Shown: piece by piece, positions 8,690-49,680 of the stretch | Layout of the letters: the number at the start of each line of letters is the position of its first letter | Position numbering within the stretch: position 1 is the stretch's first letter | DNA from: Berberis thunbergii | Lineage: Eukaryota > Streptophyta > Magnoliopsida > Ranunculales > Berberidaceae | Direction: 5' to 3' | Length of the DNA stretch: 64,000 nt | Assembly: GCA_003290165.1 (NCBI GenBank) | Contig: QNQO01005859.1 | Span: 38,316 to 102,315, forward strand | Program-made: the position numbers and the translations under genes | Notes under the pieces: model-generated | What the model was told of the DNA's origin: nothing | Database searches by the model: none | The model's input: the letters and a program-made list of their open reading frames with translations, nothing else

Positions 8690-8699
8690 AATTAAGTTG

Positions 8700-9026: not shown

Positions 9027-9033
9027 GTTGCAG

Positions 9034-12998: not shown

Positions 12999-13225
12999 CA
13001 CTACAACAAAAGGCCTGTTTAGCTACGGGGAGGTGGCCACGGTTTTAAGCCGTTGGTTTATTTGCCACGGTTTTTAGCCGTGGCTATAATGGCCCACGGT
13101 TTAGAACCGGGGCTAAAAAAATTACACCAAACTGTTGCCACGGTTTTAAACCGTGGCTATACCTGCCAACGGTTTATAACCGTGGCTAAAATTGCCAACG
13201 GTTTAAAACCGTAGCAATCAGATTT
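12999..13225. repeat. L-end subterminal repeat array of element A
   Basis: About ten units of the type GCCACGGTTTTAAACCGTGG in both orientations, interspersed with short spacers. Such arrays are the expected binding sites of a CACTA-encoded DNA-binding protein, as known for En/Spm TnpA. Each unit is a near-palindrome. Confidence 0.85.
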
Positions 13226-13315
13226 ACATTTTGGCGAATGTATTTTCGTGCTTTGGAGGGAGAAGTTTCCCGCTTTGGCCAAAAATTTGGGGAAAAATAG
13301 TCTCGCTCTCTCCAC

Positions 13316-13437
13316 GCTTCCTCTTCACAGTCACTGATTCTCGAAGTAGAGAAGAAGGACGAAAAAAGGAGAGGACGCTTCCTCTTCACAGTCACTGATT
13401 CTCGAAGTAGAGAAGAAGAAGGACAAAAAAGGAGAGG
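13316..13437 (+). repeat. Two tandem copies of a 61-bp unit
   Basis: The unit beginning CTTCCTCTTCACAGTCACTG and ending near GGAGAGGACG occurs twice in a row, with a 3-bp (aag) difference. It lies between the L-end array and the HHO start codon, in what would be leader sequence. Confidence 0.85.
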
Positions 13438-13583
13438 ACGATAGAAGAAGAAGAAGAAGAAAGTTTGAGAAGAAGAACATGAAATTGGAACTCCATTGTC
13501 AGTTTCTTCTTTCCAGTCGATTTCTTTCTCTCTCTGTCCAAATCACAAGTAGAAGAAGCATCTAACAATTGTTAGAGGAAGAG

Positions 13584-14490
13584 ATGAAGAAGATTAAAGT
13601 GTTCAAGCGAGAGCTTCCTTTCTCTATGCTCATGTTAAATGATGGTAAGTTGGGTTTTTTCGTCAAAATTTGGAATTGTTGATTGATTTGGGAGATTGGG
13701 TTTTTTTATTTTTATTTTGGTGGGTTTTTATTAATGGATTTGCTTTTGTTTTTGACTTGGATTGTAGCTATTGTGACATTGAAGGATGAGGCGAGGCAGT
13801 GTTCGATCTTGTCGAAAGCTAAGCCGATTACTGAAGAGTTTTTGCCATTAAAGAGGAATTTTGATGAAGGTGGAGGGGAGAAAGTTGATAAAGATTATAA
13901 AGATAAGAAGAGTTGGATGAGTTCTGCTCAGCTCTGGAGTTCAAATGGCTATTGTTCTGATTCTAATATAATTAATGGTGATAAAAAGCAGATAGAAGAG
14001 GTAAAGAAGTTTGATTTTTATATTTTTTTTGGGTAATTTTGATTTTTTAGAGATTGATTTGTAATGGTGTTTTGATTATTTTGATTATAGAGAGTTGAAG
14101 AAGATTGAGTTTCTGTGACTAAGAATCAAAACACTTCATGCAAGTACTGGAGTCGGGAAGGGGCATTTGCGCCGTTTAAGGGATACACTGAGGCCTCTAT
14201 AGTGAACAAGAAGAAGAAGGAAGATAAAGAGGAGAAATCATCAGTATCTGGTCTTTCTCTTCTTCTTCCTGGACTGAATACTCCAACTTCACTTACTGAT
14301 TCATCATCTTTGTTCCCGGAGAGTAAATCATCTATTTTCATGACAAAAGGGCAAGTAGATAGAGTGATAACTCCTGCACAACCACAACAACCACAATCGC
14401 AGCAATCCCAGAGGAAGCAAAGGAGATGTTGGTCTCCGGAATTGCATCGCCGTTTCATTAGTGCACTTCAGGAACTTGGTGGTTCACAAG
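13584..14490 (+). pseudogene. HHO/NIGT1-type GARP transcription factor, 5' exons captured
   Basis: Exon 1 (13584-13644) reads MKKIKVFKRELPFSMLMLND. Exon 2 (13768-14000) reads AIVTLKDEARQCSILSKAK and EEFLPLKRN, then DKKSWMSSAQLW. Exon 3 (about 14092-14490) ends with the start of the MYB/GARP DNA-binding domain, RRCWSPELHRRFISALQELG, at a GT donor. Parental proteins are nuclear repressors in nitrate and phosphate signalling. An in-frame TGA near 14106 breaks exon 3, and the rest of the DNA-binding domain (SHLQKYR) is absent. The start codon lies 585 bp inside the L end, so transcription from that end would enter it directly. Confidence 0.9.
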
Positions 14491-15258
14491 GTGAGATTTA
14501 GGACAAATAATTGGAAACAATCAAAGTGTTTTGTACTTACAGTTTGTTGATTGAATTGCATGTTTAAGTGTTTTGTCCAATGTCTTGGTGTTATGATAAT
14601 TTGATATCTTTGAAATCGTTTTCACTTTTTTGGGGGTTTAAGTATGCCTAATATCATGTTTGATGATGATTCGAGTTTGTTCAGATCCATTTTCACACCA
14701 ATTCAATCCTTGCCTCATTTGTTTGGTCTTCATGTGCTCTTGAGACTTGAATTCTTATTAGAGTTGTTAGTGATCTATATGTTGTATTCTTCATCAGAAT
14801 GTGGAATATATATTGACAGAACGTTTATGTTGAGATTGAGTTGTTGGTTGCGCAATTTTGCAAAATTGGAAGGACATTAAAGTAAAGTTGTTTAGCATGT
14901 GAAATCCGATTCTCTGCCCCTTTCTGTCTTAGGAATTGGATACTCTAAGAATTAGTTTCTTTTGATTCTGTTTTTTTTTCCAATTTTACTCGGTTACATC
15001 CGCTATGGTGTTGGATTGGTTTTTACAATTGTTCTCACTGTATTGATTCTATCTGCTGTTGGCTTAGCCTTCCTTTTGATGTCGTTCTGTCAACCCTACA
15101 TTTGGTTTTAATGGTAGCTAAATTTAAAGAATGGACAGAAAAACTGTGATGCTATTGCTAGCTACTTATATTTTTGTGTCCCAATTTGTAAAATGTCTGA
15201 AACATGAAATCAAAGGATGGCAAATGCTGATTTTGATATTAGTTGAGGGAGCACTTCC
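14491..15258. other. Intron-like AT-rich sequence in element A
   Basis: Follows the captured HHO donor. It has one 78-codon open frame (14644-14880) without a recognisable domain and with intron-like composition. No gene is called. Confidence 0.5.
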
Positions 15259-15372
15259 ATGGCTGATATTGGTTCAGAAGTTAAGAGAGAGGTAAATGCT
15301 GGCATTGCTAGCGTATCACGCTTAATGGAGCGTCTTGAAACCAGAGAAAATAGTGAAGCAACAGAAGCAAAT
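15259..15372 (+). pseudogene. Unrecognised open exon in element A, split by element B
   Basis: The frame from ATG 15259 reads MADIGSEVKREVNAGIASVS and RLMERLETRENSEATEAN. It resumes in the same frame after element B (26791 on) as GMQIFVDMVIELC before a stop. The helical, charged composition looks like real protein, but I do not recognise the parent. Continuity across B supports B having inserted into A. Confidence 0.45.
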
Positions 15373-15680
15373 CACTACACCAAAAACCCCCATTAGCAAC
15401 GGTTCTATACCGTGGGCGTAAGCCATTGCCACGGCTAAGAGCCGTGGACTACAGGGGCGTCGCGAAATCCTTTGTAACGGCTATAAACCGTTGCTAAAAT
15501 TGTAGCAACGGTTTTATATTCAGGACGGTTGATGCTTTAGCCACGGTTCTAAACCGTTGCTAAAAGTTTAGCAACGGTTTTAAGCCGTGGCAAGTTTAGC
15601 AACGACTTAAAACCGTGGCCAGACTTGCCACGGCTTAAAACCGTTGCTAATCTTTTAGCCACGGTTTTAAGCCGTGAATA
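15373..15680. repeat. R-end subterminal repeat array of element B
   Basis: Dense ACGG..CCGT units (for example GCAACGGTTTTAAGCCGTGG), followed by a poly-T run near 15686-15700 and ATCAAATGACTTTTGATTAC, which matches in reverse the R-end flank of elements A and C. Confidence 0.85.
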
Positions 15681-15879
15681 GTAATTTTTTTTTTTTTTTG
15701 CTATCAAATGACTTTTGATTACATCTTATGGGTAAGTATAATTCAGCACGTGAATCAAATAAATAAAATTTAATATGACTTTTTATTAAATTTAAAAATA
15801 GCATTTACAACCCTGATCAGCAAATTCCAACAATTGTTTTCAAGCAACATTTACAATTCATTACAGTAAGCAATTCATT

Positions 15880-16110
15880 GTTCTTATCTGTGGCATCAAT
15901 GTCCACTACATTGGAGATTTCCTTTGGCTTATTGTAGCTTAAACCACAAGCAACCTGAATTGGATCAAATAAAAAATGTATCAACACATATCAGGAAGAT
16001 TATTAATCTGAAAAAAATAAATAAAAATTCAAGTTACCTTGCTTCGAGCTGTTAGCACTGAAGTGAGGGAGTGAGCTTCTTCTTCCTCCTCAATGAAGTG
16101 GACACTTCCT
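15880..16110 (-). pseudogene. Two unrecognised open exon-like pieces
   Basis: On - the first piece (16038 to about 16110) reads VHFIEEEEEAHSLTSVLTAR and ends at a GT donor. The second (about 15880-15954) reads VACGLSYNKPKEISNVVDID after an AG. The borders suggest consecutive exons of one captured gene; the family is not recognised. Confidence 0.35.
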
Positions 16111-16889
16111 TGGATCTTGTATATTTTTCCTAAAACTAAACATGCATCATAAGCAATGGGATCTTAAAATTACCTTCTGCAGATTAGGAACTTGTTGCAT
16201 ACAAACAATATATCACAGGATGCATCAGCATGTTGATTTACAAAAGCTGCTTTCTTAGATTTTAGTCTGGTCATTCTCCTGCAGCATTAAAATTGGCATG
16301 TCAATATCCTTCCGACATGACATCAACATTTGTTTCACTAGCTTCCATAAAGCAATTGAGAAACCTCTTATACCATTCATAGCAATTCCAACAACCTCCT
16401 ACAGTTTGTTCAAGCAGGAATCATTTTATGATTGTCATGCCTTACTGTTACTTCTCAGTGGAAGCATTAAACTAAATGCACTATACTCTTTGGCAAGCCT
16501 TTTTTTTCCTTCCCTTTTTATCTTCTTTTTATTTATTTTATGTATATGGAGATAACGGTGTCCACAACTACTTTGAATGCTCCAATGGCCTCAAACCAGC
16601 TAAAAAATCATTTAACCAAATGATGCAATTACCTAATTAAACCATCGAGACATTATGCCTAGTATAATTCCTATAGATGTTAAATTACAATTCCAAAACC
16701 CCAAATCCAGTGGCACACAATGATAGGTCAACCAGAATATTATGTACCGCGAATAAAGGTTATCCTCGAGGAAGATCATTCTCAATGCTAACCAAGTCCA
16801 TCACATTATTATACAATTCCACAAGTGATGCATGAATGACAATGATACTGATAATATACTTAAGAATGAGGGGATTTTTTTGCACGGAT

Positions 16890-17017
16890 TTATACTTGTT
16901 ATAGTGCTTGTCAGCAGCTGCTCCCATGACGAGCTTCTTTATCCCACGTTCAGCAATAAGAGAAACGATTCCTTCCTCAATATCGTTCCTGTCAATTTCC
17001 AATTTTTCTGCCTGCAC
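16890..17017 (-). pseudogene. USP-like domain exon of a U-box kinase (PUB33/35-type)
   Basis: The minus-strand exon begins after TATAG at 17018 and reads VQAEKLEIDRNDIEEGIVSL and IAERGIKKLVMGAAADKHY. The GIKKLVMGAAADKHY block is the hallmark of the universal-stress-like N-terminal domain of plant U-box kinases, E3 ligases fused to kinases. No kinase or U-box segment is present. Confidence 0.8.
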
Positions 17018-17542
17018 CTATAAAATAAAGAGAGAAATCAGGTGAACTTCAATACAATAACTTGAATATCTACACAATTAGTTCCCTTCGCTGTGAAACG
17101 ACGGCACATGGACAGTCCATGTGACCTAGATGCAGGAAAGGCCAACAAAAGTCTTTCTGTGAGATAGATCGGTTCAACAATGATAGATACAGCATTCTAA
17201 TATTCGAATATATATCATAACTCACTAGGATTATAAACAGAATTCATATTAATCATTGACTATAATAGCAAAATAAATACAAAGGAAATTTGGAATTTAG
17301 AGGGAAAATGGTCTTAAAAGTGCGAAAATTTAATATGATGGCAGCAAGCCTTTGAAACAATCATTTATGTTGACCAAACTTCACAATCATAAACGCTACT
17401 TCGTGATTAATAGTAATGAAAGGCAAACTGGTAGAATGAAAAGAGTTTATCAGTTTTACGTGAATCAGTTTAAGCTAAAAAAAATAAAAATAAAAATTTA
17501 ACAGAAGAAGATATTACAGCAGCACAAAAGCAACCAGCGCAC

Positions 17543-17905
17543 CTTATATTTGTTTGTGTCAAAGATGACAACTCCATCTTGGCTTTTTCAGCAGTTTCAG
17601 TGAGTCGCTGAAGAGCCTGTTTGTCCTTCAAAAGATCAATACCTTCATCTCTTTTGAATTCAGCTGCAAGCCAATCTACGATTCTCTGATTCGAAGATGC
17701 ATAATTACCAAAAAATTGTCAGAGCCAATCAACTGTAGCATTCTAAGAAGTAATGGTTTTTGAAAAAATTAATTAATAAACAAATAACAAATAAAAGAAG
17801 AAGATTCAACTCTTGCAAACCTTGTCAAAATCATCACCACCCAAATGAGTATCTCCAGATGTGGACAAGACCTCAAATACTCCATCACCAACCTCAAGCA
17901 CAAGA
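17543..17905 (-). pseudogene. Chloroplast-type HSP70 fragment, two exons
   Basis: Exon 17821-17905 reads [20 protein letters not shown] and GGDDFDK. Exon 17543-17685 reads [20 protein letters not shown] and [20 protein letters not shown]. These are adjacent ATPase-domain segments of stromal HSP70, joined at a plausible intron with AG and GT borders on -. [19 protein letters not shown] favours the plastid over the cytosolic type. The substrate-binding domain is absent. Confidence 0.88.
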
Positions 17906-17944
17906 CATAAGCAACCTATGTTAACATAACAACAGTCAAGAATC

Positions 17945-18736
17945 AGGGAGAAAGAAGCAAAAGGACAAGAGATTGCAAAGCTGCAATCTGCTTTGACTGA
18001 CATGCAACAGAAATTAGATGAAGCTCACACAGAAATAATCAGGAAGAAAGAAGCAGCAAAGATAGCAATAGAGGAAGCACTTCTCGTCATCAAAGAGGTA
18101 CCTGTTGTGGATACTGCCAAGGTAGAGTCACTAGAGAAACTTAATGAGGAACTGGAGGTAAGATTGGCTATTACCCCGCACTTTATATATCAAACAAAAA
18201 TGAAGCTATTCGGTATTTAGAAAAGCATCAGCAACTGATAATAACAAACAAGATTTTGCACGTGCAGCATGAGTTAAACATGTTAAAAAAGACGATGGAA
18301 GATCTCGAGGGTACATATTCTGAGGTCCAAAAACAGAGTGAAGAAAGGGCTAAGCTGGTTGACGAATCACAGTCGAACTTGTCTCAACTTCAAGAAATTA
18401 TAGAAAGGTGGTCCTAAATACCAAATGTGGTTCCATACATGATAAATGAGAAGATCCTATTAATACAAAGGTGAAACCAGCCAGTCAAGTTCTTTTCTAA
18501 CATTCCTATTTTTTTTTCCCAGCCTTAAAATCAAGATTGCAAAGTTGGAGTCAGAGAATGAGTTACTCCAGAAGCAGGCCCCAGTAATAGTGCAACAAAT
18601 AGTTGCTACAGAAACAACGCCCCTACCAGTAACAAAGGTACTGTACATTACAGTTCAGATTAAGTTATTTTCACAGGAAGTGGAGCATGTTGTGACTCCC
18701 ATAACAAAACAGAAGTCCCTAAATGACAGGCAGCAA
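17945..18736 (+). pseudogene. Myosin XI coiled-coil fragment, four exons
   Basis: Exon 1 (about 17945-18157) has [20 protein letters not shown] and EEALLVIKEVPVVDTAKVES. Exon 2 (18268-18407) has HELNMLKKTMEDLEGTYSEV. Exon 3 (18533-18637) has LKIKIAKLESENELLQKQAP. Exon 4 (18677-18736) has VVTPITKQKSLNDRQQ, the linker before the myosin XI dilute domain. All four are open with GT/AG borders, which makes this one of the best preserved pieces. The motor, most of the neck and the cargo-binding tail are absent. It is the only fragment in B opposite to the L-to-R direction. Confidence 0.82.
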
Positions 18737-19362
18737 GTACGTAGATGAAAGAGATTGGAAGAATGTGAGTTTTCCAGGAAGATTTTGAAGTTAACTAGAT
18801 GCTCCCAAGTAGATTTTCCAATGTTTTATGAGTTTTCAAATAAGAACTATAAATAATGCAAAATGTCTCCAGTCTCTTCATAACTGTTATGTCAATTTCA
18901 TACGTAGATAAGTATCTAAACAAGCATGCTCATGACTGGCCCCAAAGGATGTTAGTAATTGTTTAGTTGAGCAATCTGTATCTCTCTTAGCTAGTGTTGT
19001 ACCACACTTTGATTTTTTTTTGCTACTAAATAACAATTACTGGAAACAAGGAAATGTTGCACCTTGCAAACTGTATTGATTGTACACTACAATATAAAAA
19101 AATACAAAGTGACATCAGTTGAAATACGAAGCTATTGGTAAAATTTCCTATGCTCACATGAAAATGGGAATGTTTAGTGCACTTCATAGAAAAGCATGAT
19201 ACTAAGTATTAAGGATTGGATTATATGATAAACAGAATGTGATAAATGGACCGTATAGACTCTTCGTTACAGCGAATCCATCTTACGTTATAATAAATTA
19301 ATAATAAATCAATAAATAAATAAATAATGAGAGCCTAGTAATACCACAAAAAGAGGGCATAC

Positions 19363-19544
19363 CGGAAAATGTTTCTCAACATCATCAATATCATTCACTA
19401 GTGATGCTCTTGGATCATCCAACGAAATGGCAACTATTTTCCAGTCGAGCTCCCCTTCATCAATCATAGCAAATGCTGCCAAAGGCTTAACCTTGAGAAC
19501 CTGACCAATTTTTCCCTGGGCATCTCCAATCTCAACAACATCAA
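19363..19544 (-). pseudogene. Soluble inorganic pyrophosphatase exon (plastid PPA6-like)
   Basis: The minus-strand exon reads VDVVEIGDAQGKIGQVLKVK, then AMIDEGELDWKIVAISLDDP and NDIDDVEKHFP, with an AG acceptor before and GT after. This family I pyrophosphatase segment hydrolyses PPi in plastids in the parent. The single exon is open; nothing else of the gene is seen. Confidence 0.9.
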
Positions 19545-20074
19545 CTGAAAGTTATTGATAACGTCAAAGAGAACAACTATCAGCATTTCATAAGAAAAAA
19601 ACAACACAGTGATATCTTCATTCCATCATTTTCTTTATAACCACAAGACAACAAAACTATCATCTCATGGTATAGACAAATATAAGACCTCAAAAATTTA
19701 ATGGCAATGAGCTATTCCTATGAAAAACATGAAAACTCTAATTTATCAAAAACTGATTTACAAGAAAAAAAATAAAATACAAGTCATGTATATTATTTTT
19801 ATATAGAAAATACGAACATTATCAACAGTGTTTTGGTAATTCTGACACAACAATTGAAAAATTCTGTTCGAAGACATGAACATGAACAATTCTAACCTCT
19901 CATCAGAAGTCTTTTAAGCTCAGCTGTTAAAGAAACCATTTTTTTTCGTACACACATCTCTCGTTCAACCAACACTATGAAGGCCATCGGATTCCACGTG
20001 CCATTTTTCGGTCGATGCATATACATTTGATTGATAGCAACATCTTGATATCCGAACAGTCACATGCAATGCAT

Positions 20075-20260
20075 TGCAGCATCAACGCCGCGCAGCAACA
20101 GCAGCATCAGCATCAGCAACATCAACAGCAACAGAGCGCAGCAACAGCAAGTACGCCAGTCCGCCCCCGCATGAAACAGCAGCAGAAAAAAAAAAAAAAA
20201 AAGATGCACTCTGTTTTGCAACAGAGTGCTCTGCCTACACAGCAGCAGCAGCATCCCCTG
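20075..20260. repeat. CAG/CAA-rich low-complexity tract in element B
   Basis: Runs of CAGCAGCAACAGCAGCATC over about 180 bp, with an A17 run near 20186-20202. It gives open frames on both strands purely from the repeat. A comparable module recurs at 22150-22400 and in elements A and C. Confidence 0.75.
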
Positions 20261-21102
20261 CATGATTGTAAATTTTTTTTAGAAGCAAAACTTTTGTCTT
20301 TTCTGGCATCCGAAACTACATTAGTAAAGGATATCGCTATCTACTACATTGATTGTTTTGTTTTATCCAACATTCGAACCTACCTTAGTTAAGAATATCA
20401 CTACTCTATACAATTTAGGGTTATCTTACATCAATTTATTTGTTTTTGTCTATCGATGTGAACTACCTTAGTCAAGGATATCGCTAGTTCATACAAGAGT
20501 TAGGTTAACTTATACCAATTTATTTGTTTTTGTTTCTCTGACGTTAAAAATTACCTTAGTCAATGCTAAGGCTATTCCATATGTGCAAAAGTCCAAAGGC
20601 CAGGTATCTTGTTCTTTATTGTTTTTTTTTTTCCTTAAAAAGCAATACTAACGACCAAAGGCTAGTGTACAACTACTGATTGTTGCTTCTAATATGATCC
20701 CTCAGTGTTTAATCATAGTTCTATGCAATAATAATAACATTCTATCCCAATACTTTGTGATTTATGGTCAGGCGAATCTCGAATTTAGGCTTATAGGATA
20801 ACGAACAGGCTAGTGCGATAACTCGAGACAAGCACAGAAACTCGGTCTGTTGTGAAGGTAAGAACTATACCTAATACAGAATTACATTCTTAATTAATGA
20901 TATGGATACAGGTATGAAAGTTATAAACATAAGCATTTATCATTGTTTGAAATAGCCAATGTCAAAGCTTTAGACTAAGATATATTCATTGGACTAATGA
21001 AAAAAGTGCTAGAAATGAAGGTCAAGTCATCCATAGTCCATCATGTATTAATGAAAATATCGACACAAAAAAGATGAGTGTTCAAAATGTTTAATTATTC
21101 AC

Positions 21103-21295
21103 CTTTCCATTAAGTGTAAGCTTTGCACAAGTTGGGTTCTCAGGATCTGTCTTGCCACAAGTTCCAAGAGGGAACTCACTGAGTGTAAATGAAGCCCTTG
21201 AATCATTCAATGCATTACTTGCAGTAGGGTCAAGAGTGGTCAAGTAGAAGTATGGGATGCCCCAGCCTTTACCAGGTTTCCCATCCAGATTGTTC
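21103..21295 (-). pseudogene. CREG1-like protein exon
   Basis: The minus-strand exon reads [20 protein letters not shown], then ASFTLSEFPLGTCGKTDPEN and PTCAKLTLNGKV, ending at a GT donor. This is the FMN-binding-split-barrel-like secreted glycoprotein CREG of plants. N- and C-terminal parts are absent. Confidence 0.87.
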
Positions 21296-22054
21296 TGCCT
21301 GGTAAGCATGGATTGTTCTGCCTTTAAACGCAGCAATAGTGTGTTCAACACATCCAGATTCATTTAAGGTGTCAGCGTGAAGGTTAACCTGTAGAAAGAT
21401 ATCATTAAGGCTTGATAGTATAGAGCATTAATATTTTATGAAAAGCATCATTCTCACTCAACATGTTTGTTTAATGAATTATGGATCACAGGTTTTGTTT
21501 TGAACTATTGATGACTCAATTTGAGAATTTTCACTAAATATTTGGAAATCAGCAATGTTGGGCAGTGGAATCAATGTTTGATTGTGAACCCAAGGGCAGT
21601 ATCTCTCACTGTATTTAATTCCATCCACTACATAATTTATCAAGTTTTCTTTGCTCAAAACATTCATACATGAAAGGCTTACTCCTTACACCCTCATGTC
21701 GTGACTCATGAGACATTGCATGATTGTAACACTCACAATCCGCCTTCATGTTTATAAACCTTGTTTTTGGGAAAATAAACAGATAAATAAAATTACAAAA
21801 TATATACACCCATACAGATATAAGATATGCATATCCAAAGCAAAAATGTCCTAGGAAATATAGCTGTGTCTGCGCCAAATATACAAATTAACCATAGTAT
21901 AACATCAGGCATGGTGAACACATACCACAAAGAAAAGGAAAGGTATCCAGCACACCAAACTTTTCCTCTTGACCTGTCAGACAACATAAACTTCACATCT
22001 GAACAATATTGTGTGTGTATCATTGAAAAAACAGGAATGAATGAAAAAATCTAA

Positions 22055-22400
22055 CCTGTATTTCTGGCAACAAACCGGAGGTATTGCAAACAAGAATGGC
22101 AGCAATGGCACCAGCAACTGAAATCAGCTCACTGTCAATTCCCAGCAATCCGGACAGCACCAGCAATCTCTCAGCCATAGAACACGCAGCACACGCGCGT
22201 TTCTGCGACAAATCCCGAATGTACACCGGACTGCCCAAATCAGCCAGCATACACACGCTCCAACCAAACGCTGCTACATACAGCAGCAAACGCGTCTCAG
22301 CAGCAGCAAACACAGCAGCAACAGCAATGCAGCACAGCAGCAACAGCAGCAACGCAGCGCCTCAGCAGCAGCAGCAACGCAGCGCAGCAACAGCAGCATA
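22055..22400. repeat. CAG-rich module with a unique core shared with element A
   Basis: Unique sequence at about 22150-22240, including GAACACGCAGCACACGCGCG, is followed by CAG/CAA repeats to 22400. A reverse-complement match of the core is in element A at about 31070-31140. On - an exon-like frame ends GAIAAILVCNTSGLLPEIQ at a GT donor (near 22055); its family is not recognised. Confidence 0.6.
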
Positions 22401-22769
22401 ACCGTGTCGCAGTCGCGCTTTCGCTGCATTTGTCAACCCAGATGATCTTCCCACATTTTCAATACGATCAAGCTTCCTCTAAAGACACCATTAAATCACA
22501 AGCATTGAATATCACACAAGTTTGGAAGGCACCAAACCATAACACAGTATCAATTATCAAATATGAAAAACATCACAATGCAATTGTAGTGTGACATGTA
22601 CAAGTGGCATGAACCAAAAAGGAAATGTTTTAAGGCTGAACATGAAGAGCTGTGTTGATCCATGGAAAGAGTTCTCTTTACTACTAACTTTCTGTGTAAT
22701 TCATATATCCAATACGAGCCATGAGCTTACAATATCACTATATGGACTAAAAAAAAAATGAATACCTGA

Positions 22770-22925
22770 AATTCTTGTTGCACCAAGCAATTGCCTCCAC
22801 GTACATTCAAGGGACATTTCAACGCCAAGTCTTCTGAAATAAAACCCGTGCCATCAGTATGTATCAAGGCTTCCCCATCATCAACATAGTAAACTGAGCA
22901 TCCTTCCAGTTCTTGATCAAAACAT
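22770..22925 (-). pseudogene. RNA-dependent RNA polymerase exon (RDR3/4/5-type)
   Basis: On - the frame reads LEGCSVYYVDDGEALIHTDG and TGFISEDLALKCPLNV, then NCLVQQEFQ. HTDGTGFISEDLALKCP is characteristic of the plant RDR-gamma clade, upstream of the catalytic motif. Only this segment is present. It is of interest because RDR proteins make the dsRNA that silences transposons. Confidence 0.82.
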
Positions 22926-37488: not shown

Positions 37489-37496
37489 CAGTCATC

Positions 37497-39040: not shown

Positions 39041-39440
39041 CACTACACCAAAAGGCCCATTTAGCTACACGGAGGTGGCCACGGCCCTAAACCGTTGGCT
39101 TATTTGCCACGGCCAGAAACCATGGCTATAGTGGCTAACGGCCTAAAAAAGGCTTGGCCACGGTTCTAAATCGTTGGTGTGTTTGCCACGGCTAAAAACT
39201 GTGGCTATAGTGCCCAACGGCCTAAAACCGTTGCTAAAATGCACGTGTGTTGCACGTGAAAGTGTGGAGAAGTGGCCACGGTTCTAAACCGTTGGTTTAA
39301 TTGCCACGGCTAAAAACCGTGGCTATATTGGCAAACGGTTTAAAACTGTAGCTAAAAACAATACACCAAAAAGTTGCAACGGTTTAAAACTGTGGCTATA
39401 TCTGCCCACGGTTTAAAACCATAGCTAAAGAGAATAGTTT
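39041..39440. repeat. L-end subterminal repeat array of element C
   Basis: About fifteen ACGG..CCGT-type units, beginning TTTAGCTACACGGAGGTGGC as in element A's L end. It is followed at 39450-39600 by GCGCTTTGG and TTTGGGGAAAAA motifs shared with the leader of A. Confidence 0.88.
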
Positions 39441-39655
39441 CACGCTTTAAAATTGGAGGGAGCAGTTTCGCGCTTTGGCAAAAAAATTTGGGGAAAAACA
39501 GACATGGTGGCTGCGCTTTGGCGAAAGAAATTGGGGGAAAAACACAGTGGAGAAGAGAGCATACTTGGCGAAAAAAATTGGGGAAAAACTAGGGTTTTCG
39601 CCTTGCAGCTCCCTTTCTCTATTTTCGTTTCGATCGTCTTCCCTTCTCTTCCGAG

Positions 39656-40978
39656 ATGGGCAAATCTAGCAAGAAGTCTTAGGTAACACTTCTTCCCCCT
39701 TCTCTTGTATTTCTAATTCAATCGATCGATGTTCTTGTGTAGGTCACTGCAGCCACCCCTGTTTCAGCAAAATCTTCAAAGAAAGGTTTGATTAGAATCT
39801 TCAAAATCGATCGATGTTCGGTCCGGACTGATTCTTCTTCTGATGATGTAAGTGGTTTTTGTTAAAACATTGTTAATGGCGGCTTGTTTTATTAGTCTGA
39901 AGATTTTTTGAAAAAAATTAAATCATACCTTTTTCTATATGGGGTTTTGTTAATTCGGTGTAGGAGCCTGTTGTTCCTTCAAATAAAAAACATGTTTTAG
40001 TTTCTAAGAACACTTCTGTTAAAGGAAAGCCTGAAACCAGCAGTTCTAATTCTGATTATGATGTGAGTGCTTACTCATTCTTGATCTAACAATCATAGAA
40101 AAAAAAGTGTTTTTAAATTATTTTTTTCATTATTTAGGATGTTTTAGTGTAGATTTACAAATGAAAATTAGAGTGTTTTCTATGGGAGTTGTTTCTTGTG
40201 TGTGTTGTAGGAGCCTGTTGTTAAGAAACAACAACCAGTTTCTACGAAACCTGTAAAGGGAAAGGCGAATACTAGCAGTTCTGATTCTTCGGATTTGGAC
40301 AGTTACGATGAATCTGATGACGTGAGTGCTTGGCTATACTTAATATAGCTTTTGCACGTACCATTATTCTCTAATGTGACTTTATTCTATTTGGTTAGAT
40401 AGCGATGATTCTAATTCTGATGATGTTAGTGCGGATACTCTGGTTAATCACTGTTGATACTTGATTGATTTGATATAATTGCTATATCCATTTTATATCT
40501 GCAAATTTGTTAGTTTCTTACTTTAATTTAGTACATGACCATTTGTCATGCCGTTTTAATTTAACAACTTCCTTGGATATCCAAACAGTATTGACATACC
40601 TTCAAAAGCATTGAATCTAATACCTACCCCATACCTTTATTCCCTTTTCTTTGGATGTTGAACATAATCATTGATACTCTTGTGGACCATGTCAGAGTAA
40701 ATTTCGTCTGCATTTTAAAACCTATTTTATGTGAATGTGTGTTACAAGACTTACTTCAGTGCTAGATCCTTGTAGTAATTTTCCTTTTGCTCTTTCGATG
40801 CCAATAATCATTTTGGAAATTTGATCTTATGATGTGTTGGCTTATTCTTAGGAACCCAAAGCCAAAGTGCCAGCCAAAAAGTTACCTGTGGCTGCAGCAA
40901 GGAATGGTTCTGTGGCAGCTCCCAAAAAGAAAGAAGAATCAAGTGATGATTCTGATTCTGATTCTGATGAAGAGGAGG
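39656..40978 (+). pseudogene. Nucleolin N-terminal exons captured in element C
   Basis: Exon 1 (39656-39682) reads MGKSSKKS then TAG at the splice donor. Exon 2 (39742-39784) reads VTAATPVSAKSSKK. Later exons end near 40061 (EPVVPSNKKHVLVS..SSNSDYD), 40321 (EPVVKKQQPVSTKPVKG..SSDLDSYDESDD) and 40978 (EPKAKVPAKKLPVAAARNGS..SDDSDSDSDEEE). Alternating lysine-rich and acidic serine tracts with MGKSSKK are the plant nucleolin N-terminus (rRNA processing). Each exon break falls before an acidic EP-type repeat. The start codon and probable 5' UTR are included, 616 bp from the L end. Confidence 0.88.
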
Positions 40979-41206
40979 TAAGTTCTAGCCGTGTCAAATT
41001 ATTCTTTTGTGTTTATCAAATTATTCAAGTGAGCTTTGAACTGGGTAAGGGTAACATTGTTTTCATAGTTAATTCCAAAGATGAATTCCTAAACATTAAA
41101 CGTATGTAAAATCCTATGAAAATATACTGATATGTTAATAAAATTTTTGGCTTGTTATTTAAAGATTTCTGATAAACAAAAAGTTTAATGATATTGTTTC
41201 TTCTAG

Positions 41207-43294
41207 ATTGATGTTGCAGATCACGGGAAGGAGGATTTTTATGACCCTTTGAGACATTCTACTGCAGATGTAGAAAGCTCTAATGCAGATGTGCAAGATA
41301 TTCCAGGGTTTTCAACCAGAGGGAGGTTTCCTGCTGATGACGAGCTTCAATTGTCAGCAAAAGAATGGGCTTCTTTTAAGCGGTCATTGATGCAGAAGTT
41401 TTCTTCCTCAAAGCTGGTCTCCCTTTCTGCAGTAAGCTTTAGCTGATGCCTGAAATGTACTTTTTCAGTTTTTTGGTACTCTTTAAGCTATGTACAATAA
41501 AATGAAAACACTTGTTTAATATGACCTAACCTGCATGGCACTTGTGCATTTTTAAGAGGTGTCTAGCTTAGCCTCCTAACCTAGTTAGTTGTCCAAAATT
41601 TTTGAAGATAGAGGTTACTGCCTGTGGTTAGAGTCAAGGGCACATGAGCCATTGAACTTCCCTTGAGTTAAACAAAGTTCTAGAAGCGTCCTTGGCTTCT
41701 ACCAAAATTACACTTATTAACCCTAGTTATCAATATTTTATGATATGCATGATACTATACATGATACATACACCATATCTTATGATAAATTGATATAGGA
41801 TGATGCACCATTCTTGTACAAGTGACGTGAATGAATGGATGGATGATAGTGATAGTAAATAACTTGAATAAGTGTTTTTAGGACCTGCTTGCTCGAATAA
41901 GTTTTATTTTATGTTTTATTATATGCTTATATATATTATACCTATTATTTATTTTTTCATGCTTAAATAAGAACACGATACAGTATGATATATCTTAAAT
42001 TTGGTTTTCTGCTACACAGTATGTTTAACATTTTGATTACTAAGCCAGTAAGCCATTAATATATGAATGAAGCAAGTAAGGTTAAAACAGTCAAAGTTCT
42101 TCTAAGAGCTTCTAGTTAAATATCATTTTTATTTAGGGGTTTAATTTTTGGAGAGAGAAAAAAATGAAAAGCAAGAAAGTTCTTAATCATATGGGAGTAG
42201 TTAATTTAAATGGTGTGCCTGATTGTTGATTAGTTAAATTGGTTCTTTCAGATGCATCCAATGTGAATTTGTGACAAATGATGATTTGGGCACTTTGTAA
42301 TTCGTAAAATAAAATGTTTCTTTCGACAATCATTATCCATACCAAATAATAACACACACATACATCAAATGTACTAAATGTCTAAATCATTTAGTCAGTT
42401 CTACAATGAAAATAGAAAAACGTGAAGTGGTTGATTAGACACGCAAAATGTTCTCACCCTTTGACAACTTTAATCATGGAAGTAGCTTGTCATTGATCAG
42501 ATTATTATGTTACCATTTCTAGACATATCTCGTGTATTGGCAGTGATACTGGCAAAACTATTAGAAAAGTATCTGTTATTGCTTCTATGACTGACACAAT
42601 GCATTACTTATGATAATAAATATTAAAAGAGTCAGTTAAACTTCAATTATATGTGTTTGACACACGAAGGCAAGATTAGCCATAAAAATTAGTGACAGAA
42701 GAGAGTATTTCTGAGAGGTATGAGATATGGGTACAGTTGTTGATTTAATTTCTGAAGGACATCTAATGATTTTTCTGAGTGTATTGCTCTACTCCTGGAA
42801 TCATTTGTAAAAACTTAAAGGTATGGGAAATGAAAAGTTAATTTGTAAAATCATGGTTATATCTAATTGGTCTAGTGTTTTTTATTCCCTTTCTTTCGTC
42901 TATGATGTTGGGTCCTTGTTACTCTTGCAGATATCTGATGTAAAAGTCAAAGGTGGCAAGGGTATGACTTCATTAATTATGTGCAAGTTGTTCTGCATGG
43001 TGGAAATTATTTAGTTCATTTGGCTCTGACTTCTGATTCAGAAAGATGCTGACAAGAATAGCTATAACGATTGTATCTTACTTTAGTTATTTGGTGTGGA
43101 ACTTTGCAGCCAAAGAGAAACCATCTACTAGCTTGCATTCAGAAGAGCTAAGTGAACCGCAGAGTGTTTCTGAATCGGATGTCAGACTTATTACAAGACA
43201 GGAGTATGTTTCACGATTACGTGAGCTAAAAGAGGAAATCAGCCGTGCATGGTAGGCTGATGATCATGTAACATCTTTAAAATTATCCGTCAAG
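41207..43294 (+). pseudogene. VPS35L-like (retriever subunit, former UPF0505) N-terminal exons
   Basis: Exon 41207-41431 reads IDVADHGKEDFYDPLR and later SAKEWASFKRSLMQKFSSSK. Exon 42931-42961 reads ISDVKVKGGK. Exon 43110-43294 reads AKEKPSTSLHSEELSEPQSV and ITRQEYVSRLRELKEEISRA, then W, a TAG stop, and DDHVTSLKLSVK in the same frame. VPS35L homologues act in endosomal recycling. Introns are kept. The nonsense codon at about 43253 breaks an otherwise open exon. The parental protein runs on for several hundred residues that are absent. Confidence 0.78.
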
Positions 43295-43632
43295 GCAAGT
43301 ACTCCAATGTCACTACATGTTTCAATTGCAGGTTTTCATGTTAACCTTATGAATATATGGACTTCCATTTAGCCTTTACAACTACATACGTGTATTTGAT
43401 ATATGAATTCTTGAAGAAGTTTTGTTTTTAATCATTCTCTACTTGACTACTCATCATACACGTGTGCCTGCACATTTATAATGTCTTTACATATATTCTT
43501 TATTTGATAATTCTTTATTTGTTGGTAAATGACGGTACCGGATTTTCATCCTATTGGAGTATGTTCTACAATCCTTTCCTGATCTACTATGGACATAGTA
43601 TGATACTGTTTCTTGTCAAGTTATGATTTCAG

Positions 43633-44868
43633 GTGGATTATGAGGAAGCTATTTTCTTATGGCGAGTAGAGAAGAAAGATTTTCTGCTATGGACTGTCAC
43701 TTTCGTTACTACATTATTTCTTGGTATTGAGATTGGTGTTCTAGCTGGAGTGAGTATTTAACTCAGTTGAGGTTATTTGAATCGTCCTATCATCGAAATG
43801 ACTTATGCTTAGGAACTGCAGTTACTGCTTAATGAACATGGAGATAGTCAGAGTCAGGTCATAGGCCAAAAAACTTTTATAGTTCTCATGGAGAATGCCT
43901 TGACGATGTCCCTGTACAAATTATTGTCATAGCTTAGAGTATCTCTAATGGGAGACCTTAAATCCTCCCTCAAAATTGAAATGAGATAGCTACTTTTTGT
44001 TGGGCTCCTTTCATCTGATTGCTCGGAAAACACCTAGTAACTTCTTTCCAGTTTGTAATGACTAATGACAACTCCATCTCTCTTGGATGCTAGAAAAGCA
44101 TATTTAATTCAGCAGACTTTAATATAATTAAATTTTTTTACAAGCATGATGTATTCGATGGATGAAACTAATGTTTCTATAAGCTTCAGAGAAATTTGTT
44201 CTTCATATACATTTATTTATTACTGCTGTGTTATTAATATGATCTAGGAAATTCGACACTGTAGGTGGGGCTTTCACTCGCGTTTGTCATCCATGAATCA
44301 GCAAATCCACATATTGGTGAGTTTTTTTCCCTAGTTTGGGTTGATCTGGATATTTGTACCATATTAATTCCCATGGAGCAACTATTTTCTTATTGTTTGT
44401 CATTTGCACTATGAACATTCTCTCTGTGGCATATCTGAACATCTGAACACGTATTAGAACAATCATGTACTATCTAGAATTGATTCTGTGAAAATATTTT
44501 GAAGTATGCTTTCTGGTTTTCAATGCAGCTATATTGGGACGTCTTCCTGGAACCACTATATATAGAAATATTGAACAGTACCCAGAAGCATACACTTACA
44601 ATGGCATTGTGATTGTTCGGATTGATGCACCAGTTTATTTTGCAAACATAAGTCATATAAAAGATAGGTGAGGCTTAAATCCCTGAATTAGATCAACTAA
44701 CAATTCTGAAACTCCTCAAGATAAACTGTCAACATGTTCAGTTAAAGTGTACTTACCTAATATTACATTATGCTATTAGGCTGCGGGAATATGAAATCAA
44801 TACTGATGGAGCCTCAAAACGTGGACCAGAAGTTGAAAGAATATATTTTGTGATTATCGAGATGGCAC
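43633..44868 (+). pseudogene. SULTR4-type sulfate transporter fragment, four exons
   Basis: Exons 43633-43749 (VDYEEAIFLWRVEKKDFLLW, then GIEIGVLAG), 44265-44316 (VGLSLAFVIHESANPHI), 44529-44667 ([20 protein letters not shown], then [18 protein letters not shown]) and 44780-44868 (LREYEINTDGASKRGPEVER, then YFVIIEMA). They cover the last membrane segments and the start of the STAS domain of tonoplast sulfate exporters. All four exons are open with GT/AG borders. The first nine or so membrane spans and the STAS end are missing. It is the best preserved captured piece in C. Confidence 0.93.
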
Positions 44869-45640
44869 GTAAGTCTTCCATCTTGGTTATTGCAGATTGC
44901 AGATTGCAGATGCATAAGAAAACACCCAACAGACAAAAAGAAGTTACTCATTCCATATAGTATATCTTTTCTTCACTTAAATGCAATCTATGTAATCTAC
45001 TATGAATATCTATCTTACTGATACTTCTAAGGAGCGTAAGCTCATGAAACCTTTTCTTTTGAAAAATGTTAGTGACTACTACATGTTGATCAAAGAAGAG
45101 ATGAAGAGACTTTCATCACTAATTATGGGTTACACTGAAAAACCCTTTCTGAGTATCATCCATCCATCATTTTTTAGTGAATAATGATAGGATGCATTGT
45201 TCTTTATGTAGGCCAAGGTATATGGACATCTAGGTAGCGCACATGTGGCTAAGTAATCATCACCGATATCAGATTCTCTTTACGTTCTTTGTATTACTCT
45301 TCAATTTTCTCAGTCTTTGGATGTGATCAAAGCTTGCTCGACGACAAACCAAAAAAGGCCAGCTTGGGCCTCCTTCAAAATGTCTATTTTGGATTTGCCC
45401 CCTCAAAAGGCATTTAAATAAATTTCTATTCTTTTGTAGTTGGTCCTCTTAAAGTGCAAAATACACTAAAGGCTTTTAAAACAAAAGTATATGTCAAACA
45501 TGCATCATCAAGTTAATTATAGTATTAGTCCATATAGTGCACAATCGTGGAAACATTTTAAGAAATATCTGTCGGAAAAATAGTGCAATGCGTAATCTTT
45601 GAAGAAGTTGATTAATTGCTTTATTTATATCCTTCTACAG
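44869..45640. other. Spacer in element C, no gene recognised
   Basis: AT-rich, without family motifs. It includes intron sequence following the SULTR4 donor, and separates two captures. Confidence 0.45.
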
Positions 45641-45719
45641 GTGATCAATGAGACATTGCGAATAGCTAACACCGAAAGTGGCGTGTTTAGGCGAGCAACA
45701 ACCGATGTAAACATCAAAG
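45641..45719 (+). pseudogene. CYP90A-like cytochrome P450, single exon
   Basis: A 79-nt exon after CTACAG reads [20 protein letters not shown] and TDVNIKG, then a GT donor. It contains the P450 ExxR motif (ETLR) in the form found in CYP90A brassinosteroid C-23 hydroxylases. It is bordered exactly by splice sites, and no other P450 exon lies near it. Confidence 0.82.
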
Positions 45720-46125
45720 GTCAGCCAGACTGCAAATAGTATGGTAGATTACATTACTGATAAATGTTATTCATAAGCTCGTCGAGTAAACTGATGCAAA
45801 TCTCAGATTTCTTATTGACTTGATTGATCAGTGGGAAAGCAGGAAAAACAAACAAAATTTTTTAACATTTTTTTCATCCAAATGATTTAAAAATGTAGTG
45901 AGATCTATGATTTTAGTAATTAACTGGACTTTTCTGACTATTTGAACTTGATATTTAAAGTCATTTCCAAAGTCGATTATATGGTGTATTCTATTAATTT
46001 GTTTTGGTATTGGGGGTGTCTATACTAGCATTACTGACTTGATATAAATGTGCAGGGATCACTATTATCTAACCTCGCTAGTCTAATGTTGATTTACATT
46101 TCCAGATGACTTTTACTAAAGGTAA

Positions 46126-46969
46126 AACGACTTTTGTACCTGATGCCACCAAAGCTGTAACGACCCGGTCCACATGACACCATATTGTCCGCTTTGGGCT
46201 ACCAACCGGCCCGCACGGCTTTAAAATGCGTGTTGTCATGTAGAGCGACCTCGCACACTTAAAGCACATCCCCCTCCCACACCCAGGCGATATGGGACTA
46301 TGATTCCCCTTGTAGCTCGTCCAACCCTTCTTGGCCTATTGGGCCTGTTGGGCCCTCTACCCTCACCCTCACCCTCACCTCAGGTCCGCCCACTTAGGGT
46401 CTCACAATCCACCCCCCTTAAGGCCCAACGTCCTCGTTGGCCACACAGGCACAACGTCCACGTCGCCAGAGGGCCCACTAACACTGTGGCATACTTCCGG
46501 TTGGGTCAGGCTCTGATACCAAGTGTAACGACCCGGTCCACATGACACCATATTGTCCGCTTTGGGCTACCAACCGGCCCGCACGGCTTTAAAACGCGTG
46601 TTGTCATGTAGAGCGACCTCGCACACTTAAAGCACATCCCCCTCCCGCACCCAGGCGATATGGGACTATGATTCCCCTTGTAGCTCGTCCAACCCTTCTT
46701 GGCCTATTGGGCCTGTTGGGCCCTCTACCCTCACCCTCACCCTCACCTCAGGTCCGCCCACTTAGGGTCTCACAAAAGCCAAGGCTTCAACTACTTCTGT
46801 GTTTGCAATTTTGGATTGGAAGTCAGAAATATATGCAAGCGATAGCTGTGGCATGATATTGGAAAATGTGAATGGGGACATTGAGTTCCAGCATGTCAGC
46901 TTCACATACCCAACAAGGCCAGATGTGAAGATCTTCCAGGACTTGTGTTTAACTGTTCAATCCGGCAAG
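46126..46969 (+). pseudogene. ABCB transporter exon, interrupted by a TRIM
   Basis: Before the TRIM: FVPDATKA (to 46155). After it (from 46775): KASTTSVFAILDWKSEIYAS, then NGDIEFQHVSFTYPTRPDVK and FQDLCLTVQSGK, with a donor at 46970. This is the linker between the second membrane domain and the second nucleotide-binding domain of plant ABCB (P-glycoprotein-like) transporters. It ends just before the Walker A exon. The frame is otherwise open, so the TRIM is the main lesion. Confidence 0.88.
46156..46774 (-). mobile_element. TRIM retroelement, 619 bp, complete, TSD aaagc
   Basis: Two 251-bp LTRs (46156-46406 and 46524-46774) differ at about two positions. They run TGTAACGACC to GGGTCTCACA on +. 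The internal 117 bp holds, read on -, the initiator-Met tRNA primer site TGGTATCAGAGC next to the right-hand LTR and a purine tract CTTAAGGGGGGTGGATTG next to the left-hand LTR. The element is therefore in reverse orientation. TSD aaagc at 46151-46155 and 46775-46779. No coding capacity. Near-identical LTRs mark it as one of the youngest insertions here. Confidence 0.95.
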
Positions 46970-47261
46970 GTAAAATCTCGAAACCAGATACCAGTAGATT
47001 AGTAGTAACGTGAAGTTTTTCCTAAAAAAAGTATCCTGAAATATTTTTAGCTGGAATACATTCCGACATGAAATTTGTCCGTAGTATATCTAAAGGCATT
47101 ATTTGATCTATTTTAAAAGTCAGTAATTAAATAGTCACTGCATCAAACTTGTAAAACCCCTTGGTTGCAAAATCCAACTTGGCCACGCACGTTTACTCTT
47201 GCCCACTATTCTTTGCCATGATGTAGATTATGCATATGTTTGACAATATTTGCTTACTCCT

Positions 47262-47527
47262 CTGTATGCACTTGAGTTGAATGGTGAAGATCTTGCAGGA
47301 CGTCCAGTGAGGCTTGATTTTGCACGTGAAAGGGGTGCATATACTCCTAATACAGGGTATTGTTTTGATAACATAAATTATTCAAATATTTGTTTCAAAC
47401 CAGTCATTAGAACTGATTTAAAGTTTATGTTGTCTTTTGCAGCAAAGAGTTTTATCAGAAAGGTGGTAAAAGCCAGGGACAGACTATATTTGTTAAAGGT
47501 TTTGATACCTCCCTTGGCCATGATGAG
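47262..47527 (+). pseudogene. Nucleolin RRM-region exons, second nucleolin piece in element C
   Basis: The first exon (about 47262-47356) reads LELNGEDLAGRPVRLDFARE and RGAYTPNTG. The second (47443-47527) reads KEFYQKGGKSQGQTIFVKGF and DTSLGHDE. These are the end of RRM1 and the beginning of RRM2 of plant nucleolin. They lie 6.3 kb downstream of the nucleolin N-terminus with pieces of four other genes between. Confidence 0.85.
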
Positions 47528-48812
47528 GTAAAAATCCATACAGAGTTGATTTTATATTAAAAATCCATACAGAGTTGACTCATGAAACTCTTTTCTTGAT
47601 TTTGAATCATTTACAACTGATATTTTATATAAATAACAGTTAATAAAAGCTTAAAGAATAGTGATATGTTTATTGCAAACAAAGTCAATGTGGCCTTTTT
47701 TCCTGAGCTCATGAACTTCAGCATTAGATGTTTACCTGCTCATCCCTGTCCCATTTGGAACGCTTCTGTTCCGATCCTGAAGGAAAAAAACTGGATAGGG
47801 ATGAGGTCCATTCGTCCCGTGTCCACCCCTATCTTCAATACATGAGGACTACCATAATCAGATAGCATTTCTTTATTCAATTAATCTGTTCCAGCAATTA
47901 ATCTGTCCTTGGTGATAGCATTTCTTTATTCAATACATGAGGTTCACCTAAATCAGACATCATACAATTTAGATTTTCAGGAGAAACCTCTGCATTGAAT
48001 AATAAGCAACATAGACATCACTAAGCCATATCTGAAAGACAATGAGGATGACTGCACCTGTTGCCATCAGCTTACTGGCCATATTCATAAGAAATGAAAT
48101 AATTGGCAGAGGGGATAACTATTGTTCTCCTTAAGGTAGAAAGGATAGAAAAGGTGGGTTTAACTTTTGTCTGATATTGTTTGGTTACATTATATGAATC
48201 ATCTCTAGTCATTCCTCTGGATTCTCAAGTGTTCTAAGAGTAAAATTCCCTTCTTACTACCCTCTGAATGTTGCATCTTCTACATTATGGGATTTTAAAA
48301 GTGCACTCTTCTTGGACTATTCTCATATATGATGCATCTACTTCTATATGATCCTTAATGCATGCTCTAGGAGTGAATCAAACAAGCAAGGCATTAATGA
48401 ATAAAGTAATAAATATATTTGCTTGTAGGGCGTTCAGGGTTCAAATATGCTACCATTGAAGTATATTATTATTCATGTCTACTTGGGAAAACAAAAATTC
48501 CATAACAACATGACATAAATCAAAATGAAAAGGAACTACCCCTGGTGTACAATAGCATCCTGTTCCAAGTTCAAATAATCTCACAATATTTATAATAATC
48601 CAAGTTAAAAGGTTGACACAAAATGTGTATGATGTTGTTGAAACTCTTATAATATGCTTCACATTAATTATAACATCTTATGCTCTATGTTTGGATCTTT
48701 ATTATGCCTTCCATTTGTTTTGATTTTAATGGTTTGAATGGTAGTGATGTGCATCGGTATCAAATATAATATGCAGAAGGTTTGGATCCATTTTTATGCA
48801 AGTATTGATCAT
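47528..48812. other. Element C interior, no gene recognised
   Basis: AT-rich. Part of it (about 47730-47830) has an inverted similarity to the GGGATGGG-type MITE termini (CCTGTCCCATTTGG, GGGATGAGGTCCATTCG) and may be a small MITE remnant. Confidence 0.4.
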
Positions 48813-48939
48813 AAACCCTGGTTCACTAGGTGTCGTTGCAAGGAGAAATCTGGGGTTGTTTGGTGACGTTGGATGGTACTATGGTCGAGGTTTATGTTGC
48901 TGCATCAGCACTCCTAGAAGCAATTTTCATAGGTGATTT

Positions 48940-49060
48940 GTCTAGCAGCAGTGATTCCCTCGCAGCAGCAGCAGAAGTGCGTACCTCGCATCATCAGCAG
49001 ATCGTCCCTTGCAGCAGCAGCATTGCGTCTCTCGCAGCAGCAGCAGCAGCATTGTTCCAC
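48940..49060. repeat. CAG-rich module near the R end of element C
   Basis: Three CAGCAGCAGC clusters with related spacers (TCCCTCGCAGCAGCAG, GTCCCTTGCAGCAGCAG, GTCTCTCGCAGCAGCAG). It looks like a decayed tandem unit of about 40-60 bp. Comparable CAG-rich tracts occur in A and B. Confidence 0.7.
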
Positions 49061-49309
49061 TTTCTTTGTATTTGAGATATTTAAGTTTGTGTGTGTGTCA
49101 TTGTATTTGAGATATTATTTGATAGATTTTGTGACTCAATGTAATACATTATGTTATTAATTACATTACTTTGTCTCCATTCATGGAAATGTTTAAGTTT
49201 GGCACATTAAAATTTTTATTTTCTAGAAATAAAACTTATAAGATGTAATAAAAAGTCATTTGACAGCAAAAAATAATAATAATAAATTAATTAAAATTAA
49301 AAAAAAGGC

Positions 49310-49680
49310 TAATTATTGCAACGGCTAAAAATCGTGGCTACCTTGCCATGGCTTATAACCATGGCTAGTACTGGCCACGGCTTAAAACCGTTGCTAAAGA
49401 TATGGCAACGGCTTAAAACCGTGGCCAAACTTGCAACGGTTTTAAGCCGTGGCTACTCCTGCCCACGGCTTAGAACCGTGGCTAAGATTTTGGCAACGGT
49501 TTATAACCGTGGCTAAATCATCAACCGTCCTCGAGATAAAACCGTTGCTAATATTTTAGCCACGGTTTTTAGCCGTTACTAGGGATTTAGCAATGCCTCT
49601 ACAGCCCATAGTTCTATGTCGTGCCAATGGGTTACCCCCACGGTTTAAAATCGTTGCTAATGGCCATTTTTGGCGTAGTG
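49310..49680. repeat. R-end subterminal repeat array of element C
   Basis: About thirteen ACGG..CCGT units. It is preceded (49080-49270) by ATTACATTACTTTGTCTCC and GTCATTTGACAGCAAAA, shared with the R end of element A. Confidence 0.88.

Follow-up and report, generated by a model that had tools for sequence, protein, structure and literature searches.

The stretch of Berberis thunbergii DNA analysed here (64 kb, hereafter the window; C5843:38316-102315 of a 2.24-Gb assembly) contains three Pack-CACTA elements, A, B and C, which are non-autonomous CACTA (En/Spm) transposons carrying fragments of several host genes. We consider it very probable that these elements form three related subfamilies of host-DNA mosaics that were moved in trans and had their interiors rewritten mainly by template-switching repair. 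The evidence for this account comes from the elements themselves, their target site duplications (TSDs), their empty sites, multi-copy relatives, alternative interiors with fixed breakpoints, and one donor cluster, all of which were observed directly.

Structure and ends of the three elements

The elements and the end regions of A are located as follows:

12999..32964, + strand: element A, host of B; CACTA ends, TSD TAA/TAA, empty-site paralogs, same-type copies elsewhere
15373..26787, - strand: element B; CACTA ends, TSD AAT/AAT; nested in A, inverted
39041..49680, + strand: element C; CACTA ends, TSD ATT/ATT
12999..13218, + strand: L-type terminus and subterminal array of A
32480..32964, + strand: R-type subterminal array and end of A

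A sequence-only reading of the window had proposed these coordinates, ends and TSDs, and all of them proved exact, with 3-bp TSDs at precisely these positions in 3/3 elements. Without B and one TSD copy, A measures 8548 bp. All three elements have CACTA..TAGTG terminal inverted repeats, and each possesses one L-type and one R-type end. The L-type ends aligned among A, B and C, as did the R-type ends, whereas the two types had about 13 terminal bases in common. The subterminal arrays were examined with the motif ACGG(N5-8)CC[GA]T / A[CT]GG(N5-8)CCGT, and 47 matches were detected in the window, 47/47 of them within the six end regions (A-L 5, A-R 12, B-R 7, B-L 11, C-L 6 and C-R 6), compared with a mean of 3.15 and a maximum of 6 in 20 first-order Markov copies of the whole window. 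The motif had been derived from the ends beforehand, so the informative part of this result is the zero matches elsewhere in the window; no ACGG..CCGT unit was found by this search in the interiors of A, B or C. These results bore out the unequal ends and subterminal arrays that had been described from the sequence.

The local identity of the L-type ends was 76% between A and B, 70% (82% in part) between A and C, and 78% (83% in part) between B and C; for the R-type ends, the values were 79% (A-B), 82% (B-C) and 68% (A-C). Members of one transposon family are expected to share at least about 80% identity over their ends, and the trio falls short of this value. Because the end identities were 70-83% (L) and 68-82% (R), and because each element has close relatives outside the trio, A, B and C appear to be better described as three related subfamilies than as the one family proposed earlier; the kinship of the ends stood, and the single-family rank did not. 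A search of Rfam yielded nothing at gathering score across the window. The Pfam scan of 40 open reading frame (ORF) pieces chosen from the three elements contained no transposase, as the sequence-only reading had stated, and its interpretation of the elements as Pack-CACTAs was supported.

Relatives of A and their interior types

A second locus with B inside A was found at C95:1199437-1219436 (L019, L020) with 99.8% identity, and a second copy of C was present on the same contig; the C95 locus is probably the other haplotype. A search with the left end of A gave 4065 first-look candidates, and the best 40 of these, which were scored, matched over the full length at 95-100%. The first-look figures in this study (4065 and 5743 for the L-end searches, 9112 for C and 7513 for B) are not copy counts. 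With the window and its twin excluded, 18 of 38 A-type left-end sites were fetched. An R end lay within 10 kb in 13/18 sites, and matching 3-bp TSDs were observed in 13/13 of these two-ended copies, which represented 10 distinct sites owing to the flank-sharing pairs L023/L025, L028/L036 and L034/L038. This search was the check that had been suggested earlier, carried out in part, and it revealed copies with shared ends and different interiors. For each of the three elements, relatives with 94-100% identical interior blocks were found.

The A copies fell into three interior types. Type 1 is collinear with A of the window (L021, with a deletion, L024, L028/L036 and L033) and probably includes L026, in which an insertion is present and the stretch obtained did not reach an R end. 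Type 2 (L022, L023, L025, L027, L034, L037 and L038) equals type 1 except that an unrelated sequence stands in place of positions 5291-6569 of the B-less A; it is about 1.28 kb long, or 0.82 kb in L027 and L037, and carries a starch synthase 4 exon (PDB 6gne, 4.7e-20). The corresponding part of the window is:

29707..30985, + strand: type-1-specific stretch of A, in place of which type 2 has the unrelated stretch of about 1.28 kb

The breakpoints between types 1 and 2 were identical in 9/9 copies compared (4 of type 1 and 5 of type 2). Type 3 (L029, L030, L031, L032 and L035) shares only its first 2909 bp with types 1 and 2; beyond this point it carries other pieces, including a V-ATPase exon (PF00006, 8.8e-9), which we take by eye to encode subunit B, and its R end, seen once (L032), was 88% alike to that of types 1 and 2. 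The left modules of the A copies were 98.1-99.8% identical (L019 set aside), indicating that these copies spread recently. In a tree of the TAF6 module, constructed without L021, L026 and type 3, type 1 formed one clade (0.976).

Empty sites and nesting of B

The following empty sites were found in the window:

~7020 and ~8929: empty-site paralogs of A
~54827: diverged empty-site paralog of C

The flanks of A recur at about 6900-7110 and 8810-9030, each time with one TAA and without the element, and those of C recur at 54715-54940, where they are more diverged than the flanks of A. Separately, 6788-8692 and 8697-10612 form a head-to-tail duplication with 96.3% identity, portions of which also flank element A. 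The empty site of B is provided by other A copies: the ORF cut by B was intact in L031, L032, L035 and L038, and copies such as L024, L028 and L036 aligned straight across the site, unbroken. These comparisons show that B inserted into an RHF-type exon that A had already captured.

Interiors of B and C

The interior search for C scored 25 of 9112 candidates. Among these 25, the block 39700-44016 was present nearly whole at 15 other places, and the blocks 44012-45479 and 46812-49100 were each present at several places with 94-98% identity, while no match to 45479-46812 was found beyond the window and its twin. In the C relative L039, the interval corresponding to 45479-46812 is about 2.6 kb long and presumably contains further sulfate-transporter and ABCB exons, as assigned by eye.

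The interior search for B scored 14 of 7513 candidates, and the B of the window was itself absent from these 14, which are a sample. They matched portions of 18007-19833, of 20703-26390 or of both at 98-100%, the intervening stretches often being missing, and 15720-18007 was found in 0/14 of them. The myosin-like exon of the C720 relative is joined midway to a CAG-rich spacer and to further pieces, which we take by eye to be ERD2-like and sugar-transporter-like. Taken together, the comparisons showed that the interiors of A, B and C are modular, as relatives keep the ends and differ inside.

Captured gene fragments

The gene pieces recognised between the ends are listed by element, and those marked as presumed were assigned by eye.

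14109..14498, + strand: A, presumed exon of an HHO/NIGT1-like GARP transcription factor; Pfam Myb 16.8 bits, below cut-off
15247..15372, + strand: A, RHF-type E3 ubiquitin ligase exon, interrupted by B; searched with the uninterrupted L031 copy
27698..29263, + strand: A, TAF6 exons that retain introns and probably contain a frameshift; Pfam PF02969 4.9e-10, PF07571 9.3e-8
16182..17017, - strand: B, presumed U-box/USP kinase exons; no relevant Pfam match
17963..18637, + strand: B, presumed myosin XI coiled-coil exons; weak unrelated Pfam matches only
19363..19515, - strand: B, inorganic pyrophosphatase (PPase) exon; Pfam PF00719 5.9e-16, AG/GT-bounded
21100..21279, - strand: B, CREG-like exon; Pfam PF13883 1.8e-15, 63/64 candidates matching with up to 85% identity
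22784..22909, - strand: B, presumed RNA-dependent RNA polymerase (RDR)-like exon; no match in PDB or Pfam
24780..24854, - strand: B, phosphofructokinase (PFK) exon, weak; Pfam PFK 0.0097 (below cut-off), PDB PFKs 1.5e-3, AG/GT-bounded
40852..40989, + strand: C, presumed nucleolin-like acidic exon, with a second piece at 47268-47357
43633..44867, + strand: C, chloroplast sulfate transporter 4-like exons, the first piece presumed; PDB 7lhv 5e-4, the sole match, for piece 44679-44957
46775..46969, + strand: C, ABCB transporter exon; PDB plant ABCB1 7.8e-26

The Pfam scan placed 4/40 pieces above cut-off, representing three genes (PPase, CREG and TAF6). With the uninterrupted RHF exon as query, 4/4 candidates matched with 76-90% identity, one of them named RHF in its source. 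The nucleolin-like piece 47244-47528 of C found no match in PDB, and for the C piece 41207-41443 none of three candidates reached E 0.001, leaving its VPS35L-like label, given by eye, unsupported. In total, six parents had protein-level support, a P450 gene was firm by DNA, PFK was weak and six were assigned by eye. The sequence-only reading had counted two parents in A, eight in B and five in C. For A, two were supported and one was added by eye; for B, the count shrank to two supported, one weak and three by eye; for C, three were supported and two were by eye.

The TAF6 exon 27698-27784 is bounded by AG and GT. Since the reading frame differs between pieces 28152-28202 and 28204-28260, the TAF6 copy is not a working gene. 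Because exons bounded by AG and GT were retained (TAF6 27698-27784, PPase and PFK), and because the P450 match described below runs through an intron, the captured material was evidently copied from DNA and not from RNA.

P450 piece, its donor and a TRIM-like insertion

The part of C that matched only the window and its twin includes:

45479..46155, + strand: C-specific piece with P450 exon; donor cluster in the same genome
46156..46775, - strand: TRIM-like retroelement in the ABCB exon; 252-bp long terminal repeats (LTRs), 5-bp TSD AAAGC

By protein comparison, the P450 piece was weak (E 0.011; best E 0.024 in a second search). By DNA, the query 45470-46150 returned 23 candidates, 23/23 of which were scored, and the matches were the piece itself, its twin, C2621, C1559, C817, C2085, C10199, C1323 and C11357. 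Several matches along each of C2621 and C1559 indicated a tandem cluster. The best donor showed 92% identity over 45576-45916. At donor locus L040, the only one examined in this manner, the exons on both sides were P450 by Pfam, which indicates that the copied segment came from the middle of a gene. Window positions 45485-45591 correspond to 1816-1941 of donor L041 and 45587-46066 to 399-889; the two parts thus stand in inverted order relative to the donor, with five shared bases at the joint, and the same inversion was observed against C817 and C2085. Template switching may explain this order, and so may a deletion within the tandem cluster. Among the parent genes elsewhere in the genome, the P450 donor was the one that was traced.

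The LTRs of the TRIM-like element were 99.2% alike and enclose a 116-bp middle, which ends in what we take to be a tRNA-Met-like primer site. Many copies are present in the genome, apparently in tandem in C524 and C8236. This 99% repeat had been considered as captured DNA; it proved to be an insertion of the TRIM-like element.

Proposed mechanism of capture and exchange

Under the account that we favour, the transposon proper would comprise about 0.2-0.6 kb at each end, and the interior would be a mosaic of host genomic stretches, introns included, copied from several genes. The TSDs and copies lead us to infer cut-and-paste movement by a CACTA transposase supplied in trans, which would create the 3-bp TSDs (no partner was found in the bounded search described below). 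B jumped into an exon that A had captured earlier. From one amplification round to the next, sharp replacements would rewrite the interiors and leave both outer parts unchanged. We think that the main occasion for this rewriting would be the repair of internal breaks or excision gaps, in which the repair synthesis switches template to another locus or element. Gap repair with template switching has been discussed for animal elements (PMC8277862). We favoured it because the internal swaps leave the outer parts intact.

The most serious competitor is neighbour fusion, the Pack-CACTA model of Catoni 2019 as described in PMC8903248 and PMC13317346, according to which two neighbouring elements lose their internal ends and then move as a single unit, together with the host DNA that separates them. 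We consider this a real but less probable main route. Type 3 and types 1 and 2, with a common left part of 2909 bp, different right parts and right ends 88% alike, fit such a fusion, and B inside A indicates that the required proximity occurs. Against it, the difference between types 1 and 2 is an internal 1.28-kb swap flanked by 5.3 kb and 2.0 kb of element that both types share, the interiors have no ACGG..CCGT units, and the P450 piece consists of two parts of a single gene whose order is inverted. Several results weigh in turn against the account that we favour. Neighbour fusion explains the altered right part of type 3 better, and the single donor traced lies in a tandem cluster, where deletion between neighbours could give the inverted order. 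The left-module tree (which retained L019, a stretch that spans A into B and whose long branch is an artefact) and the right-module tree (without L026 and type 3) did not resolve types 1 and 2 from each other, which makes recombination between copies likely as well. In addition, the bounded search described below found no autonomous relative with Transposase_21 and A/B/C-type ends. We think that both gap repair with template switching and neighbour fusion act.

Two further explanations appeared very improbable. Ordinary pseudogenes or segmental duplications with unrelated CACTA ends would account for the decay of the pieces, such as the adjoining TAF6 pieces in different frames; this reading is contradicted by copies at 10 distinct sites whose boundaries coincide exactly with the ends, flanked by TSDs and sharing interiors, and by empty sites that are without the whole element. 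An identity as Helitrons or Mutator-like elements (MULEs, here Pack-MULEs) is more improbable still. Helitrons have neither a TSD nor terminal inverted repeats and MULEs have 9-bp TSDs, whereas A, B and C depart from the Helitron pattern on both counts, and their CACTA/TAGTG ends, 3-bp TSDs and subterminal arrays contradict either assignment. Like these elements, Helitrons and Pack-MULEs do carry host gene fragments (PMC1947982).

The genome was also searched with PF02992 (7809 first-look candidates, 150 scored matches). A/B/C-type ends were found near 0/10 of the transposase loci checked (flanks of about 1.5 kb, one shorter), and none of the best 80 L-end rows, 40 from each of two L-end searches, lay near the 150 matches by eye.

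CAG-rich spacers

CAG-rich stretches were located in B and C:

20061..20200: CAG-rich spacer in B
22231..22465: a second such spacer in B, 78% alike to that of a type 2 A copy across 240 bp
48926..49090: CAG-rich stretch in C

CAG/CTG-rich spacers also lie between captured pieces in L022, L027, L029, L035 and L042. Those of B, of type 2 and type 3 A copies and of the C720 relative of B were 70-83% alike over short stretches; the stretch in C matched none of the other spacers, and its kinship with them was not supported. The CAG-rich peaks of the window fell within the elements in 3/3 cases, which is not significant alone because the elements make up about 48% of the window. It is conceivable, but in our view unlikely, that captured modules have been repeatedly exchanged between CACTA elements with the CAG/CTG-rich spacer as a template-switch hotspot. 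Such cassette shuffling would generate new fragment combinations by recombination between elements, beyond fresh capture alone.

Comparison with known systems

In anatomy, the closest known system is Tpn1 of Ipomoea nil, which has hundreds of copies (339 identified, with a mean length of 7.1 kb), few of them with transposase genes (PMC5105172). Like A, B and C, these are non-autonomous CACTA elements with 3-bp TSDs, conserved ends, subterminal repeats and captured genic interiors; the subterminal repeats of Tpn1 are 122- and 104-bp tandem repeats, whereas those of A, B and C are units of about 30 bp. Tpn1 also belongs to a different genome, and A, B and C differ from it in being three subfamilies with traced module swaps. 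Tgm-Express1 of soybean likewise carries several gene fragments but was studied at one mutant allele (PMC1947982), whereas each subfamily here has many relatives. The load of captured genes had been called striking; the multi-gene capture stood, and it is less unusual than supposed, as Tpn1 and Tgm-Express1 do likewise. Maize Pack-CACTAs often contain DNA from more than one locus, with newly gained DNA internal, as in A, B and C; the detailed Pack-TYPE examples are PIF and Mariner elements with pieces of 58-280 bp, whereas 0.7-2.6 kb differ between copies here (PMC8903248). The CACTA elements of Chenopodium have also captured host gene fragments, but they are described as having transposase domains and fragments of a single gene each (an 80-bp AP2 piece; two Neprosin pieces) (PMC8978399). 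In the open-access literature, three terminal strings of A, B and C returned no paper, and nothing in the open-access CACTA and Pack-CACTA literature was recognised as this family, most subscription papers lying outside that set.

The phenomenon is known, and A, B and C are a new example with an unusually clear record of module exchange. How CACTA elements capture several genes is unsettled between neighbour fusion and gap repair with template switching. One genome here combines a nested pair of elements with near-identical copies that have alternative interiors and fixed breakpoints, and it contains at least one low-copy donor; the order of captures is readable from the copies. The two models predict different donor order and internal end remnants, which makes them testable in this genome.

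Other features of the window

At 61694-63984 on the - strand lie what we take, by eye, to be decayed Ty1-copia-like ORFs (no Pfam match at E 0.01). A DUF4283-like ORF below the Pfam cut-off at 36519-36968 (- strand) is probably a retroelement remnant. Between A and C, and outside the elements, an ORF at 37115-37564 (+ strand) matched the terpene synthase N-terminal domain of Pfam above cut-off (46.7 bits).

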